From Haladaptatus caseinilyticus (GTDB lineage Archaea > Halobacteriota > Halobacteria > Halobacteriales > Haladaptataceae): a DNA stretch of 64,000 nucleotides. Positions 28,818 to 34,191 of this stretch are shown here, one piece after another; within the stretch, counting starts at the first letter, position 1, and the number at the start of each line of letters is the position of its first letter. Made by a program: the position numbers and the translations under genes. The notes below the pieces were generated by a model. That model was not told where the DNA came from, ran no database searches, and was given only the letters and a program-made list of their open reading frames with translations. Location of the stretch: assembly GCF_026248685.1 (NCBI RefSeq), contig NZ_CP111036.1, positions 434,001-498,000 of the forward strand, written 5' to 3'.

Positions 28818-29867
28818 CTACTCGGAACTGCCGTCTATCTCGCCATCGGGGTGTGCAACCGTGCGAAAGCGGAGTTTGAATGCGGCACCGTCGTCGTCGT
28901 TTTCGACCCAGATATCGCCGCCGTACTTTTCGAGCAGACGATCGACGAAAAAGAGGTCGAGGCCGTGACCGTGATGGAGCGGACTGACCTCTTCACGTCC
29001 GAAGATGAGGTCGTGTTCGTTCGGCGGGATTCCAGGGCCGTTGTCCGCCACTGTCAAGGTGACGAGTGTATCCTCGAGATCGAGACGAACCGTTACGTGC
29101 GGAACGGACGAATCGTTGTGTTCGACGGCGTTCTCGAAGACGGCGTCGATCGCAGTTCCGATAGCATCATCGGCGACTACCACGGCTGGTTCGATGCCGA
29201 ATTCGGCATCGAACTCGGCGTTCGGATATCGTTCTCGAACTTCATCGAGTTTGTTCCGCAGCAAGTCGTTGAGGCGAACAGGCACGAGCGACGGGTCGGT
29301 TCGTTGGGAGAGGAGTTCGTCCAAATTTCGAGCGGTTTCGGCGTATTTGATGATGGAATCGATCCGTTTTCGGGCAGTCGCGAGCGATTCTGTCAGCGCT
29401 TCGTCGTCGAGTTCGTCGGCGACGATATCGACGTGGCCGAGGACGACGTGCGCGTCGTTTCGAAGGTTGTGTCGGAGGACGCGATTCAGAATTCGTAGAC
29501 TCTGTTCGTACTGTCGTCGCTCGGTGAGGTCGGAGAAAAACCCGGCGTATCCACGGAGTTCCCCGTCAATTCGGACGGGAACGCACGAACCGCGCCCGTA
29601 GATCATTCGCCCATCCTTCGTCGTCGTCTCGAACCCACCCACCCACGGCTCACCAACGGCGAGCGATTCTATCATTTCACCATATATTTCAGGTTCGCTG
29701 AACAGTTCGAGTGGTGTATCGCCGACGAGTTCGTCCCTGCTATAACCGGTGAAATCAACGCACGCCTCGTTTACGTCCTGCACGATGAAGTTCGTGTCAG
29801 TAATAATAGCAGGATTTCTCGTCTGCCGAAACGCGGTCTTGTAGATGGTCGGATCGGTACTATCCAT
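28818..29867 (-). CDS. PAS-domain sensor histidine kinase
   Basis: A soluble two-component sensor of 349 aa. The N-terminal PAS domain (residues 5-125) contains IITDTNFIVQDVNEACVDFTGYSRDEL. The dimerisation/phosphoacceptor box is NRVLRHNLRNDAHVVLGH, with the His near residue 151. The ATPase has N-box VFENAVEHND, G1 DNGPGIP and G2 GHGLDLFFV. No response regulator is adjacent, which is common in haloarchaea. It shares a 125-base AT-rich spacer with the divergent terpene-synthase-like gene. Confidence 0.9.
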   Translation of the reverse strand: MDSTDPTIYKTAFRQTRNPAIITDTNFIVQDVNEACVDFTGYSRDELVGDTPLELFSEPEIYGEMIESLAVGEPWVGGFETTTKDGRMIYGRGSCVPVRIDGELRGYAGFFSDLTERRQYEQSLRILNRVLRHNLRNDAHVVLGHVDIVADELDDEALTESLATARKRIDSIIKYAETARNLDELLSQRTDPSLVPVRLNDLLRNKLDEVRERYPNAEFDAEFGIEPAVVVADDAIGTAIDAVFENAVEHNDSSVPHVTVRLDLEDTLVTLTVADNGPGIPPNEHDLIFGREEVSPLHHGHGLDLFFVDRLLEKYGGDIWVENDDDGAAFKLRFRTVAHPDGEIDGSSE

Positions 29868-29992
29868 GTCTCTACACCTATTCTTAATTCAAGGGATATA
29901 TTATTAACGAGAACAAAATACCATTCTAGACAGTTTCTAGAATATGTAGCAGAAATGTTTTTATTATCCATACAGTAAAAGGCCATACGAGA

Positions 29993-30976
29993 ATGCCACG
30001 TCAACAGCTCATCGACGAGCTACCGATTCCCCCGGACCATCTGACAGAGATCGTGACAGCGACGCTCCCGGAACCGGTTGCCGAGCTCTCGGATGAGTAC
30101 GACAGGGTGGTTGGCGACCGCGACCAGTTTCTTTGGCAGTGGATATACACGTTGTTTCCATCGTTTACGCTCTCGTCGGTATCTGCGGAATATGCGGAGC
30201 CCGCTCGAATCCAGAAGACGATTCTCACGATGTTCGTGACGCTCCTGGACGACTTGGCGGAAAAGGGTCACGATCAAAAGACGTTAGAGGAAGCGTGTCA
30301 AATCCCGTATCGGCCCGAAACGGTGAATCCCGACCGGAAGGGAGTCGACACGGAGCAGTTGCGATATATTCAGCGGGTTTGGTCCGCGTTCGAGGACGGT
30401 ATTCAGGACGCACCGAAACACGACGACTACAGGGATATTTTCGACTGTGACTTGCGCCAGACGCTCATCGGTATCGAATACTCCCGGGTGTTGAACGACC
30501 ACGTCGAAATTGCCAACATGGCCGGAATAGAGCATTATGACCCGCACAACATGTTGATGTTCCCGTATGCAGGTGTCGATCTGATGTTCTCGCCATCGTT
30601 CGACGATAGTGACCTTTCGACAGTACGGTCGGTTATCTGGGAACTACAACGAATGGCGAGAATCGGAAACTGGACGACGACGTGGGAGCGTGAACTCGGC
30701 GAGGGTGATTACACTGCTGGACCGGTCATCTACAGCCTCCAAGAGGGCCTCATCTCGATGGAGGATCTGAATCCGGACGACGAGAACGCTATCAAGCGAG
30801 TGACCGAACAGATCCGGTCACACGGTATCGAAGATCGGTTCATCAGTGAGTGGGAAGAGCGGTACGAAGCGGTAAAGGAACGACAGGAACGAGCCGACAG
30901 CGTGGATCTGGACTCGTTCGTCGAGGGAATGCGGACAGTACTCGCGTATCAACTCGCAGCACGTGGCAAAAAATAA
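29993..30976 (+). CDS. Probable class I terpene synthase
   Basis: A 327-residue all-helical protein. The Asp-rich metal motif is DDLAE (residues 86-90) in FVTLLDDLAEK. The second metal triad is Asn226-Thr230-Glu234 (GNWTTTWERELGEGD), fitting the (N/D)xxx(S/T)xxxE motif with the helix-lining pattern that follows it in terpene synthases. The 140-residue spacing fits bacterial enzymes, and a WEERY Arg-Tyr follows near 287-291. A possible pyrophosphate-sensing Arg is not clear. If active, it would ionise a prenyl diphosphate and cyclise it. No prenyltransferase lies nearby. AT-rich flanks on both sides and a TTTTATTA element about 35 bases upstream. Confidence 0.65.
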   Translation: MPRQQLIDELPIPPDHLTEIVTATLPEPVAELSDEYDRVVGDRDQFLWQWIYTLFPSFTLSSVSAEYAEPARIQKTILTMFVTLLDDLAEKGHDQKTLEEACQIPYRPETVNPDRKGVDTEQLRYIQRVWSAFEDGIQDAPKHDDYRDIFDCDLRQTLIGIEYSRVLNDHVEIANMAGIEHYDPHNMLMFPYAGVDLMFSPSFDDSDLSTVRSVIWELQRMARIGNWTTTWERELGEGDYTAGPVIYSLQEGLISMEDLNPDDENAIKRVTEQIRSHGIEDRFISEWEERYEAVKERQERADSVDLDSFVEGMRTVLAYQLAARGKK

Positions 30977-31123
30977 CGGACAAGACAATTCCGATATCAT
31001 ATATACTTTTCTGGACGTGAAATATATACCCGAACCGACGAGTTTCGAGGGATCATATGTACCGGTATCTAAATATATCGCTATTAGATACAGTGATAAT
31101 GACCGCGTTGAACACAACGAGTG

Positions 31124-32962
31124 ATGCTCGACGTACTCGGTCGCAGGGACGTGCTCGAACTGGTTTTCGCCAGTAGCGTATGGGCCAGTTACGATGAGGA
31201 GGAAGACGAAGGGACGACCACCGCGAGGGGGACCTCGACGAGGGTCAAAGCACAGGAAAGCGAGCACGCGGATGGTGGTCCGACGCTTACCCGTCTCGCC
31301 ACAACCGTTTCGGGTGCGGAGTTCACCGGCCTGTTTCTCACGGACGACGGACGACTGTTCTTCAACGTTCAGCACCCGTGGCCGGACAACCGTACTCCCT
31401 ACGACGAGGGGACCGTCGGCGCGCTCGTCGGCGCGAACATGTACGAACTCCCACGGGAGTTTTCGAGCGTGCAAGTGCCGAAAAACGAGCGCCAGAAAAA
31501 CGTGGTTCGAACGGCTGTCGGCCAACATCAACCGCTCGCCAACGGCGGCGACGTGACGGTCGACGGTACCGGCCTCGGTATTCCGTACACGAAGTCGGGC
31601 GAACCGATGACGGCGGGCGACAACCCGGACTTTAACGGGTTCGTCCCGGCCGACCGATGCGCAAAGACCGCGAAATCGGCAGGGAAAGGAAACCGAGAGG
31701 GATACCTGTTCACGAATTGGGAAACACAGCCCGGTATGGTTAGTCGCCTTCACATCCGTCAACGGGGCAAAAACGGTGCGTGGGAAGTCATCGAAAAGAT
31801 GAACGTCGATTTCGGCGGCGTCGAGGGCACCTGGAACAACTGCTTCGGTACGGTCACACCATGGCAGACCCCACTGACTTCCGAGGAGTACGAACCCAGC
31901 GCGGAGGCGTGGTTCGAACCGGACCAGCAGACCTACGGCAACGCCGAATCGGCGTTCGAAGATTACCTCGGCTACTTCGGCAACGCCTATCGCTACGGAT
32001 ATGTCGTGGAGATCGACGACCCGACCGGCGAGCCGTCACCCGAAAAGCGGTTCGCAATGGGTCGGTTCTCCCACGAGAACGCCGTCGTGATGCCCGACCG
32101 GAAGACGGCCTACATGAGCGATGACGGGACCGGAACCGTCTTTTTCAAGTTCGTCGCCGACCGCGCGGGCGACCTCTCCGCCGGAACGCTGTACGCGGCG
32201 AAGGCGAACCAGGACGGTGGGAGCGATCCGAACGCGGTCGGCTTCGACATCGAGTGGGTAGAACTCGCCAGTGCGAGCGACGACGAAGTCGAGTCGTGGA
32301 TCGCCGAATACGACGGCCAGAACCCAGAGGACGACCCGCAGTACATCACGGACGAGGACGTACGAATCTGGGCCGCCGGGAAGGCCGACGACGACCGCGT
32401 CGCGTTCCTCGAGTCGCGAAAGGCCGCTGCGGCGAAGGGCGCGACCGACGAATTCCGAAAGATGGAGGGCGTCAACGTTCCGTCGAACGCCGAGCCGGGC
32501 GATTACATGTATATGGCGATGTCCGAACTCAACGAGACGATGCTGTCTAACGAAGCGACCGACGAGTTCGACGACTCGCAGGACGATATCGAACTCAAAG
32601 GGAACGACTACGGCGCAGTCTACCGGATGCGACTCGAATCGGGGTACGACGTTTCCCGAATGGAACCCGTCCTCACGGGTGGCCCGGATGCCAACGTCTG
32701 TGGTGGCTGTCCGTACGACGCCGCGCCGAACTCGAAAAGCACGGTGTGTCAGAGCTGCGCGCACAACCCGAAGAAGGACGAGGACGGCGACTCGGGTACC
32801 GGCATGGCCGCGCTGAAAAACGGCTCCTTGATGGATCCCGAGAACACCATCGCCAATCCCGATAACATCGTCGTCATGCCCGACGGCCGTGTCGTCATCG
32901 GTGAAGACAGCGGTATCCACGAGAACAATATGCTGTGGGTCTACGACCCCGGCGAAGACTGA
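31124..32962 (+). CDS. PhoX/DUF839-family phosphatase-like protein
   Basis: About 612 aa, with the beta-propeller pattern of DUF839/PhoX alkaline phosphatases: FVPADRCAKT, LFTNWETQPGMVSRL, GTWNNCFGTVTPW for the calcium/iron site, then RFSHENAVVMPDRKTAYMSDD and NPDNIVVMPDGRVVIGED. Four Cys near the C-terminus (CGGCPYD and CQSC) add a possible metal site. The N-terminus has RRDVLELVFASSV, like a twin-arginine signal, followed by a short low-complexity linker, so export is likely but the signal is weak. The ATG at 31124 is preferred to GTG at 31121. Probably scavenges phosphate. Confidence 0.8.
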   Translation: MLDVLGRRDVLELVFASSVWASYDEEEDEGTTTARGTSTRVKAQESEHADGGPTLTRLATTVSGAEFTGLFLTDDGRLFFNVQHPWPDNRTPYDEGTVGALVGANMYELPREFSSVQVPKNERQKNVVRTAVGQHQPLANGGDVTVDGTGLGIPYTKSGEPMTAGDNPDFNGFVPADRCAKTAKSAGKGNREGYLFTNWETQPGMVSRLHIRQRGKNGAWEVIEKMNVDFGGVEGTWNNCFGTVTPWQTPLTSEEYEPSAEAWFEPDQQTYGNAESAFEDYLGYFGNAYRYGYVVEIDDPTGEPSPEKRFAMGRFSHENAVVMPDRKTAYMSDDGTGTVFFKFVADRAGDLSAGTLYAAKANQDGGSDPNAVGFDIEWVELASASDDEVESWIAEYDGQNPEDDPQYITDEDVRIWAAGKADDDRVAFLESRKAAAAKGATDEFRKMEGVNVPSNAEPGDYMYMAMSELNETMLSNEATDEFDDSQDDIELKGNDYGAVYRMRLESGYDVSRMEPVLTGGPDANVCGGCPYDAAPNSKSTVCQSCAHNPKKDEDGDSGTGMAALKNGSLMDPENTIANPDNIVVMPDGRVVIGEDSGIHENNMLWVYDPGED

Positions 32963-33199
32963 CTCCGCCGAGTCCGCTCGGCACGCTTCGCGCACCGACA
33001 TCGGAACCGATTTCGTTTCGAGTTTCGCCTCGACTTGCAACGTTGCTTCCACGGAGCGGCCGTTTTCGTCCCGATAGAACCCGTTTTCGACTCACAGCGC
33101 GCCGGGAGATGCGTCTCGGTGGCAAATATATATCGCACTACGGGTCAATTGACTCCAATTATGATACTATTTGACAAATTGCTTTCAAATACTCGAACG

Positions 33200-34191
33200 A
33201 TGTCACCGAGCCTACCGAACGTCGGACGTCGAACCTTCCTGCACAGCACTGCCGCCGCAACCGTCGTCTCCGCGACAGGTACCGTGGGAGGCCGCGAACA
33301 TGCGGACGAGGCGGACGACAGGATGGAAGAAGACGACGACTGCAACCAGCTGAACGTTATCGCGCACCGGGGGTTCGCCGGAATGAATCCCGAGAACACC
33401 GTCGGTGCGGTTCGGTCTGCCTCCCGCGGCGGTCACGGAAAGGGAATTCGCCCTGCCGCAGACATGGTGGAAATCGACGTGGTTCCCTGTAAGGACGGGG
33501 AAGTCGTCGTCTTTCACGATTCGGGGCTCAGCGAGCGCGACGGCGGCGAGCGTGGCCTCACTGATAAAAGCGGACTCGTGTGGGAGACCCCGTCCGAAGT
33601 CGTCCGTCGGGCGGAAGTGCTCGAAAGCGGGGAGACGGTACCGCTGCTGTCGGAACTCATGTCCGCGGTGCCATCCCACGTCGGTGTAAACGTCGAGTTC
33701 AAGAACCCAGGTTCGTCCGACCTTCGATTCGCGGAAAACTATCCGAAGACGAACTCGACGAGCAGAAAGCCATCTGGCGACCGTTCACCGAGCGCGTGCT
33801 CGATATCGTGTCGGGGTTCGAAAACGACGTACTCGTCTCCTCGTTCTACGAGGCCGCGCTGGCAACGGTCCGGGAGACCGACCCGTCGCTACCGACGGCA
33901 TTCCTGTTTTGGGACTCCATCGAAGAGGGGTTGGAGATAACACGAAAGTACGACTGTGAAGCGCTCCATCCGCCGTGGAACATGATTCGAGACACTCCGT
34001 TTTTCGGCGACGAATACTACCTTTCCGGCCCGTTTGCCGATATCGATCTCATCGAAGTCGCACACGAAGAGGGACGCACGGCAAACACGTGGACCGTCGG
34101 AACGGGGTATCAAGCGACCCAGCTGCGTGATGCTGGCGTGGATGGAATCATCGCCGATTACCCGGGTTTGCTCGGCTTCGACGGTCGATAA
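33200..34191 (+). pseudogene. Glycerophosphodiester phosphodiesterase, single frameshift
   Basis: Two reading frames together give one complete exported GDPD. The first has a twin-arginine signal (RRTFLHSTAAATVVSATG), the catalytic AHRGFAGMNPENT with His, Arg and Glu, and EIDVVPCKDGEVVVFHD. The second carries the rest: RVLDIVSGFENDVLVSSF, CEALHPPW and AGVDGIIADYPG. The frame changes at the A-run 33735-33738 (GCGGAAAACTATCC); one extra A would restore AEKLSEDEL. It could be a real null allele, a sequencing error or, less likely, programmed slippage. A TATA-like AAATATATAT lies near 33125. Confidence 0.8.

Follow-up and report, generated by a model that had tools for sequence, protein, structure and literature searches.

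Introduction

Plants, fungi and bacteria are the classical sources of class I terpene synthases; reports from archaea are recent and sparse. In the well-studied bacterial enzymes, a diphosphate-sensing (effector) arginine is located on helix G about 46 residues before the NSE motif, and a C-terminal RY pair is found in addition. The bacterial class I sesqui- and diterpene synthases (PF19086), for instance the 10-epi-cubebol synthase ScCubS (7zrn), hydropyrene synthase (8b4m) and T-muurolol synthase (9hqm), are the systems to which the haloarchaeal family described here can best be compared. Both consist of a single all-alpha domain of about 300-340 aa, and in both the metal-binding motif DDxx(D/E) precedes Nxxx(S/T)xx(K/R)E. 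The proteins are 12-15% identical, the member studied here falls below Pfam detection, and the archaeal family lacks both the conserved RY pair and the helix-G arginine and displays an NSE motif of the form N-W-x-x-T-W-x-R-E-x-x-E-x-D that is fixed across its members. Farnesyl and geranylgeranyl diphosphate synthases (PF00348) have the common isoprenoid synthase fold and the first aspartate-rich motif, but the protein studied here differs from them by the absence of the second DDxxD and by the lack of any sequence match.

Archaeal terpene synthases were earlier characterised by heterologous expression in yeast, according to a 2026 paper on solubility (PMC13235557). This paper (ref. 21) and the MARTS-DB paper (PMC12797696, ref. 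48) both cite the same study of terpenoid biosynthesis in archaea by Samusevich et al. (bioRxiv 10.1101/2024.01.29.577750). As far as these citing papers describe them, the enzymes of Samusevich et al. resemble the present family in being terpene synthases from archaea. No description of the haloarchaeal synthase family by name was present in the literature found. Archaeal terpene synthases are an already known kind of enzyme; the present gene is marked by its distinctive motif form, and its sensory neighbourhood is noteworthy.

The probable synthase gene in Haladaptatus

The window analysed is a stretch of 64,000 nucleotides from Haladaptatus caseinilyticus (contig NZ_CP111036.1, positions 434,001 to 498,000), the genome of which comprises 4.82 Mb in 7 contigs. 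At 29993-30976 on the plus strand, it contains an intact open reading frame with an ATG start and a length of 327 aa. From its predicted fold and conserved motifs, this gene is judged with a probability of roughly 87% to encode a class I terpene synthase made of one alpha-bundle domain.

Copies of the gene were found in H. pallidirubidus, H. litoreus, H. salinisoli and H. halobius, with 87%, 84%, 73% and 71% identity to the window protein, respectively. Differences between the Haladaptatus copies fall mostly on third codon positions (29/18/141, 43/19/125 and 64/38/158 at codon positions 1/2/3), a pattern typical of a protein-coding gene under purifying selection. In H. pallidirubidus (L001:8001-8981) the reading frame is interrupted by one TAG, at W227, and in H. 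halobius (L004:8001-8909) by two in-frame stops. Both are probable pseudogenes, assembly errors being the alternative. If the stops are genuine, some species can do without the gene, a point that counts against the synthase reading.

Metal-binding motifs and conserved residues

The first metal-binding motif, D86-D87-L-A-E90, is encoded at 30248-30262 (plus strand) and lies at the C-terminal end of a helix spanning residues 65-90, the equivalent of helix D. The second one, an NSE/DTE motif N226-W-T-T-T230-W-E-R-E234 that includes R233 and is preceded by R223 (30659-30694, plus strand), is found about 140 residues further on, near the C-terminal end of helix 205-236, the equivalent of helix H, so that the order of the motifs in the model is that expected for helices D and H. 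It is directly followed by the stretch L235-G-E237-G-D239 (30695-30709, plus strand). The original prediction had placed the open reading frame, DDLAE at residues 86-90, the N226/T230/E234 triad and a GEGD stretch after it in the same way, and all were found there, GEGD at residues 236-239.

In an alignment of 28 homologues, D86, D87, E90, R223, N226, T230, R233, E234 and D239 are invariant. Conservation was also followed in 41 representatives of the archaeal family that are less than 70% identical to one another: D87 and T/S230 are present in all 41, N226, E234 and D239 in 40 and E237 in 38, and the segment from R223 to the end of the NSE motif is kept in 40. Both motifs are intact in 40 of the 41 when an asparagine is allowed at D86; the sole exception is a short and probably decayed copy (L102). 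Chance has to be considered here, since a DDxx[DE] and [ND]xxx[ST]xxxE pair separated by 120-160 residues arose in 1.5% of 20,000 shuffles of the window protein. The protein being an acidic haloarchaeal one, the motif pair alone is weak evidence on a genome-wide scale; its conservation throughout the aligned family is strong evidence.

The family departs from the bacterial pattern in other respects. No conserved arginine was found about 46 residues before N226, position 180 not being basic in most of the 41 representatives, and no conserved C-terminal RY pair was found in the same set (R290 in 12/41, Y291 in 20/41). The C-terminal WEERY that had been pointed out beforehand does exist at residues 287-291, but only W287 is conserved and the stretch cannot be taken as a family feature. 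For lack of a conserved helix-G arginine and RY pair, the family is not filed in the canonical bacterial-type terpene synthase subfamily, and these absences also count against the synthase reading. In addition, W227 and W231 around the NSE motif as well as N186 are invariant in the family, which to our knowledge is unusual.

These same deviations favour an enzyme of class I terpene-synthase fold with an unusual substrate or reaction: instead of being a classical cyclase, it might for example release a linear prenyl alcohol, or use a prenyl diphosphate that is C25 or lipid-linked. Archaea use both GGPP and GFPP for their lipids. Nothing specific speaks against such an activity, but the metal motifs and the fold are as in ordinary cyclases, and it is considered a minor possibility. 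It is a sub-case of the terpene synthase reading and not exclusive of it.

Predicted fold and profile matches

The AlphaFold2 model of the window protein, built from the 28-sequence alignment, reached a pLDDT of 92.8 and a pTM of 0.92 and is all helical, as had been anticipated. When it was compared with the PDB by Foldseek, the first match was 10-epi-cubebol synthase (7zrn; E 5e-5, TM about 0.6), and further matches comprised VenA, BcBOT2 and the aristolochene, taxadiene, T-muurolol and hydropyrene synthases, with FPP synthases interspersed. With TM-scores of 0.5-0.6 the similarity is moderate, and FPP synthases come close in score, which counts against the synthase reading. L082, a homologue that shares 22% identity with the window protein and comes from another class of the phylum, was given a model of its own (pLDDT 90.7); the 50 best matches listed for it are terpene synthases, among them hydropyrene, Sat1646, T-muurolol, BjKS and isoprene synthase. 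The predicted fold of the window protein is the isoprenoid-synthase alpha-bundle, and structure prediction returned this bundle, not another fold, in two divergent members of the family.

Terpene-synthase profiles, PF03936 and PF19086, had been proposed as a further check and gave a mixed outcome. The window protein itself has no match in Pfam or NCBIfam at E<=10, which is another point against the synthase reading, but some of its relatives match one or both profiles. Counting matches up to E 10, PF19086 (Terpene_syn_C_2) matches 22 of the 28 aligned members, with a best E of 2.3e-8, and PF03936 matches 10 of the 28 weakly. A relative that is 51-53% identical to the window protein (G046/L011) reaches 33.4 bits with PF19086 against a cut-off of 23.7, the match covering residues 76-250 and profile positions 3-180 of 199 and spanning both motifs. 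Scores above the PF19086 cut-off were obtained in 8 of 59 relatives' genomes, every one at the site of a synthase-family gene.

Searches of the PDB sequences with phmmer and with the family profile gave no significant relative among solved chains, which also counts against a synthase. The best profile match was Arabidopsis TPS18 (7bzb, E 0.56), a similarity that is sub-threshold only: an arginine three residues before the NSE asparagine and an E-x-x-x-G-(D/E) after the motif align locally with the plant-type C-terminal domain (PF03936), and the archaeal family has no N-terminal beta domain of the plant enzymes. Matches obtained by phmmer to de novo designed or P-loop-fold proteins were rejected as chance. 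Taken together, the class I terpene synthase reading is supported by the alpha-bundle fold of the models, the conservation of both metal motifs and the relatives above the PF19086 cut-off; the precursor enzymes encoded in the same genome and the adjacent regulators also speak for it.

The common superfamily fold and the presence of human and insect FPP synthases among the Foldseek matches would also suit a sequence-diverged, chain-elongating prenyl diphosphate synthase of the FPP/GGPP synthase type. This is very unlikely, because the window protein has no PF00348 match while two true polyprenyl synthases, located elsewhere in the same genome, score E 4e-68 and 2.5e-55. Moreover, the second aspartate-rich motif is replaced by the invariant N-W-x-x-T-W-x-R-E, and the matches listed for the distant L082 homologue are terpene synthases and not FPP synthases.

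Distribution of the family

The family is widespread. A protein search found it in 54 of 195 related genomes and an alignment-based search in 121 of 391 Halobacteria genomes (~31%), representing 39 of 86 genera. In a sample of the phylum it was present in 40 of 393 genomes, members outside Halobacteria included. Such enzymes had been thought to be hardly described in haloarchaea; with 121 of 391 genomes the family is common, and previous reports of archaeal terpene synthases exist (cited in PMC12797696 and PMC13235557). A family gene was also found in six haloarchaeal plasmid records, in each of which it is annotated "hypothetical protein". Given this spread and these labels, archaea may routinely make cyclic or otherwise modified terpenoids.

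Among viral contigs, 37 pattern matches gave no confirmed relative, and by this search the synthase is not virus-borne. Some genomes hold two or three family copies (L100, L101, G213 and G273), those of L101 (G320:C14:19391-21701) forming a tandem and those of L100 (G018:C1:3302986-3309209) lying close together. Distant synthases from outside Halobacteria (L082, L083, L084) carry DDxxD together with NxxxTxxxE.

Gene neighbourhood

The neighbour of the synthase gene on the opposite strand (28818-29867, minus strand) encodes a divergently transcribed histidine kinase of 349 aa with Pfam PAS and HATPase_c domains. A close homologue of this kinase is the divergent neighbour in all Haladaptatus loci examined, and homologues are also found near the synthase elsewhere, in divergent orientation at 0.1-0.2 kb (L097) or directly downstream in Salinigranum (L106). 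In other loci the place is taken by regulators of other types: a Bat-like PAS-GAF-BAT-HTH_10 protein (L064, L066, L098, L099, L105), with HalOD1 between the synthase and the Bat-like gene in L064 and L095, an HVO_A0261/FilR1-type regulator, mostly followed by HalOD1 (L065, L067, L069, L076, L077), or a KaiC-like ATPase (L072). Outside Halobacteria, a PAS-PAS-HisKA_2-HATPase kinase (L082, L084) and a multi-PAS kinase (L080) were observed. The synthases of L082, L083 and L084 lie directly downstream of a kinase-sized open reading frame of 493-495 aa on the same strand, with a gap of 41-252 bp.

In a divergent set of 31 loci (less than 60% identity), a sensory or regulatory gene is located at most 1 kb from the synthase in 15; roughly half lack one, but the pairing is repeated in different genera with regulators of different types. 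The first kilobase holds such genes at a density of 2.6 per 10 kb, compared with roughly 0.2-0.5 per 10 kb between 2 and 6 kb, an at least 5-fold contrast that is inflated by the query regulators having been drawn from these neighbours; owing to the same bias of the query set, the enrichment p-value of 1e-6 is indicative only. When the loci that supplied query regulators were dropped, most of the near matches remained.

The suggestion that the PAS kinase might regulate the synthase gains support from this recurrence of sensory and regulatory neighbours across the family, and the kinase may be considered a candidate regulator. The recurrent pairing also provides a direct entry point to the question of when the terpenoids are produced. 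The gene had also been described as standing alone. This holds for biosynthetic genes, an all-against-all comparison of neighbouring open reading frames having revealed no common tailoring enzyme, but not for the neighbouring regulator, which recurs. Other scanned neighbours, such as a metallo-beta-lactamase fold protein, a cobalamin adenosyltransferase and a diol dehydratase reactivase among others, have no common theme.

A tentative and rather doubtful extension would be a terpene synthase family spread across the archaea that makes a signalling terpenoid or one under environmental control, organised as a conserved sensor-to-terpene module. It would build on the location of the synthase beside light-, redox- or oxygen-type sensors in haloarchaea (PAS kinases, Bat-like PAS-GAF-HTH_10 proteins, HalOD1, KaiC-like ATPase) and beside PAS-PAS-HisKA_2 kinases in a distant archaeal branch. 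We know of no earlier description of such a module.

The sensory genes that recur in the neighbourhood, together with the in-frame stops in two Haladaptatus species, could also be explained by a catalytically dead protein that has kept the isoprenoid-synthase fold and serves a regulatory role. This is very unlikely, the catalytic residues being among the most conserved positions.

Proposed chemistry and control

Besides its two polyprenyl synthases, the genome has three squalene/phytoene-type (SQS_PSY, PF00494) genes, also located elsewhere than the synthase, and with these enzymes FPP and GGPP are expected in the cell. That the window gene itself encodes a head-to-head condensing enzyme of, or related to, the squalene/phytoene synthase type is extremely unlikely: haloarchaea make squalene and C50 carotenoids and the fold class is the same, but the protein has no PF00494 match beside the three genuine genes, and its motifs are DDxxE and NSE, not the paired DxxxD of SQS_PSY enzymes.

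For the class I terpene synthase, a mechanism can be proposed by analogy with the established chemistry of these enzymes. Three Mg2+ ions would be held by D86/D87/E90 and N226/T230/E234 and would bind the diphosphate group of the linear prenyl substrate, FPP or GGPP, aided by the conserved basic residues R43, K75, R212, R223 and R233. The diphosphate would then be ionised and leave, and the carbocation would cyclise or be quenched to give a terpene hydrocarbon or alcohol. Given the absence of any recurrent tailoring enzyme beside the gene, the synthase may itself make the end product, which could be volatile or membrane-soluble. Judging from the recurrent gene neighbourhood, expression would probably be under environmental control through the adjacent sensor or regulator, that is the divergent PAS histidine kinase in Haladaptatus and Bat-like or HVO_A0261-type transcription factors in other genera.

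Putative promoter region and flanking genes

The kinase and synthase genes share a divergent intergenic region of 125 bp (29868-29992), which was aligned across 6 Haladaptatus loci. It is AT-rich, as had been noted for the flanks, and the GC content of 29001-30000 is 52.8% compared with about 60% in most of the window. Its last part at about 29942-29980, AATATGTAGCAGAAATGTTTTTATTATCCATACAGTAAA, is largely conserved in the intact Haladaptatus copies and may represent the BRE/TATA of the synthase promoter. In these copies, the conserved block ATGTAGCAGAA(A/G)(T/C)GTTTT(T/C)ATTATC(C/G)ATACA(G/C)TA ends shortly before the start codon, and TTTATTAT is a putative TATA element of a near-leaderless transcript.

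Upstream of the putative promoter, a perfect inverted repeat, ATTCTAGA-5-TCTAGAAT, is present at 29923-29943. It is unique in the window, where 0.08 occurrences would be expected by chance (up to 3 mismatches), and is a possible candidate operator. As a conserved operator it was rejected, the perfect repeat not being kept in the other species compared.

Downstream, at a distance of 145 bp and on the same strand, a PhoX-type alkaline phosphatase gene (PF05787) is located at 31121-32962 and is preceded by AT-rich DNA; it gave no sign of a link to the synthase. It is followed at 33035-34191 (plus strand) by a glycerophosphodiester phosphodiesterase gene (PF03009) that is split over two frames, profile positions 1-116 lying in the open reading frame 33035-33940 and positions 123-243 in that of 33580-34191, which reflects either a frameshifted gene or a sequencing error.
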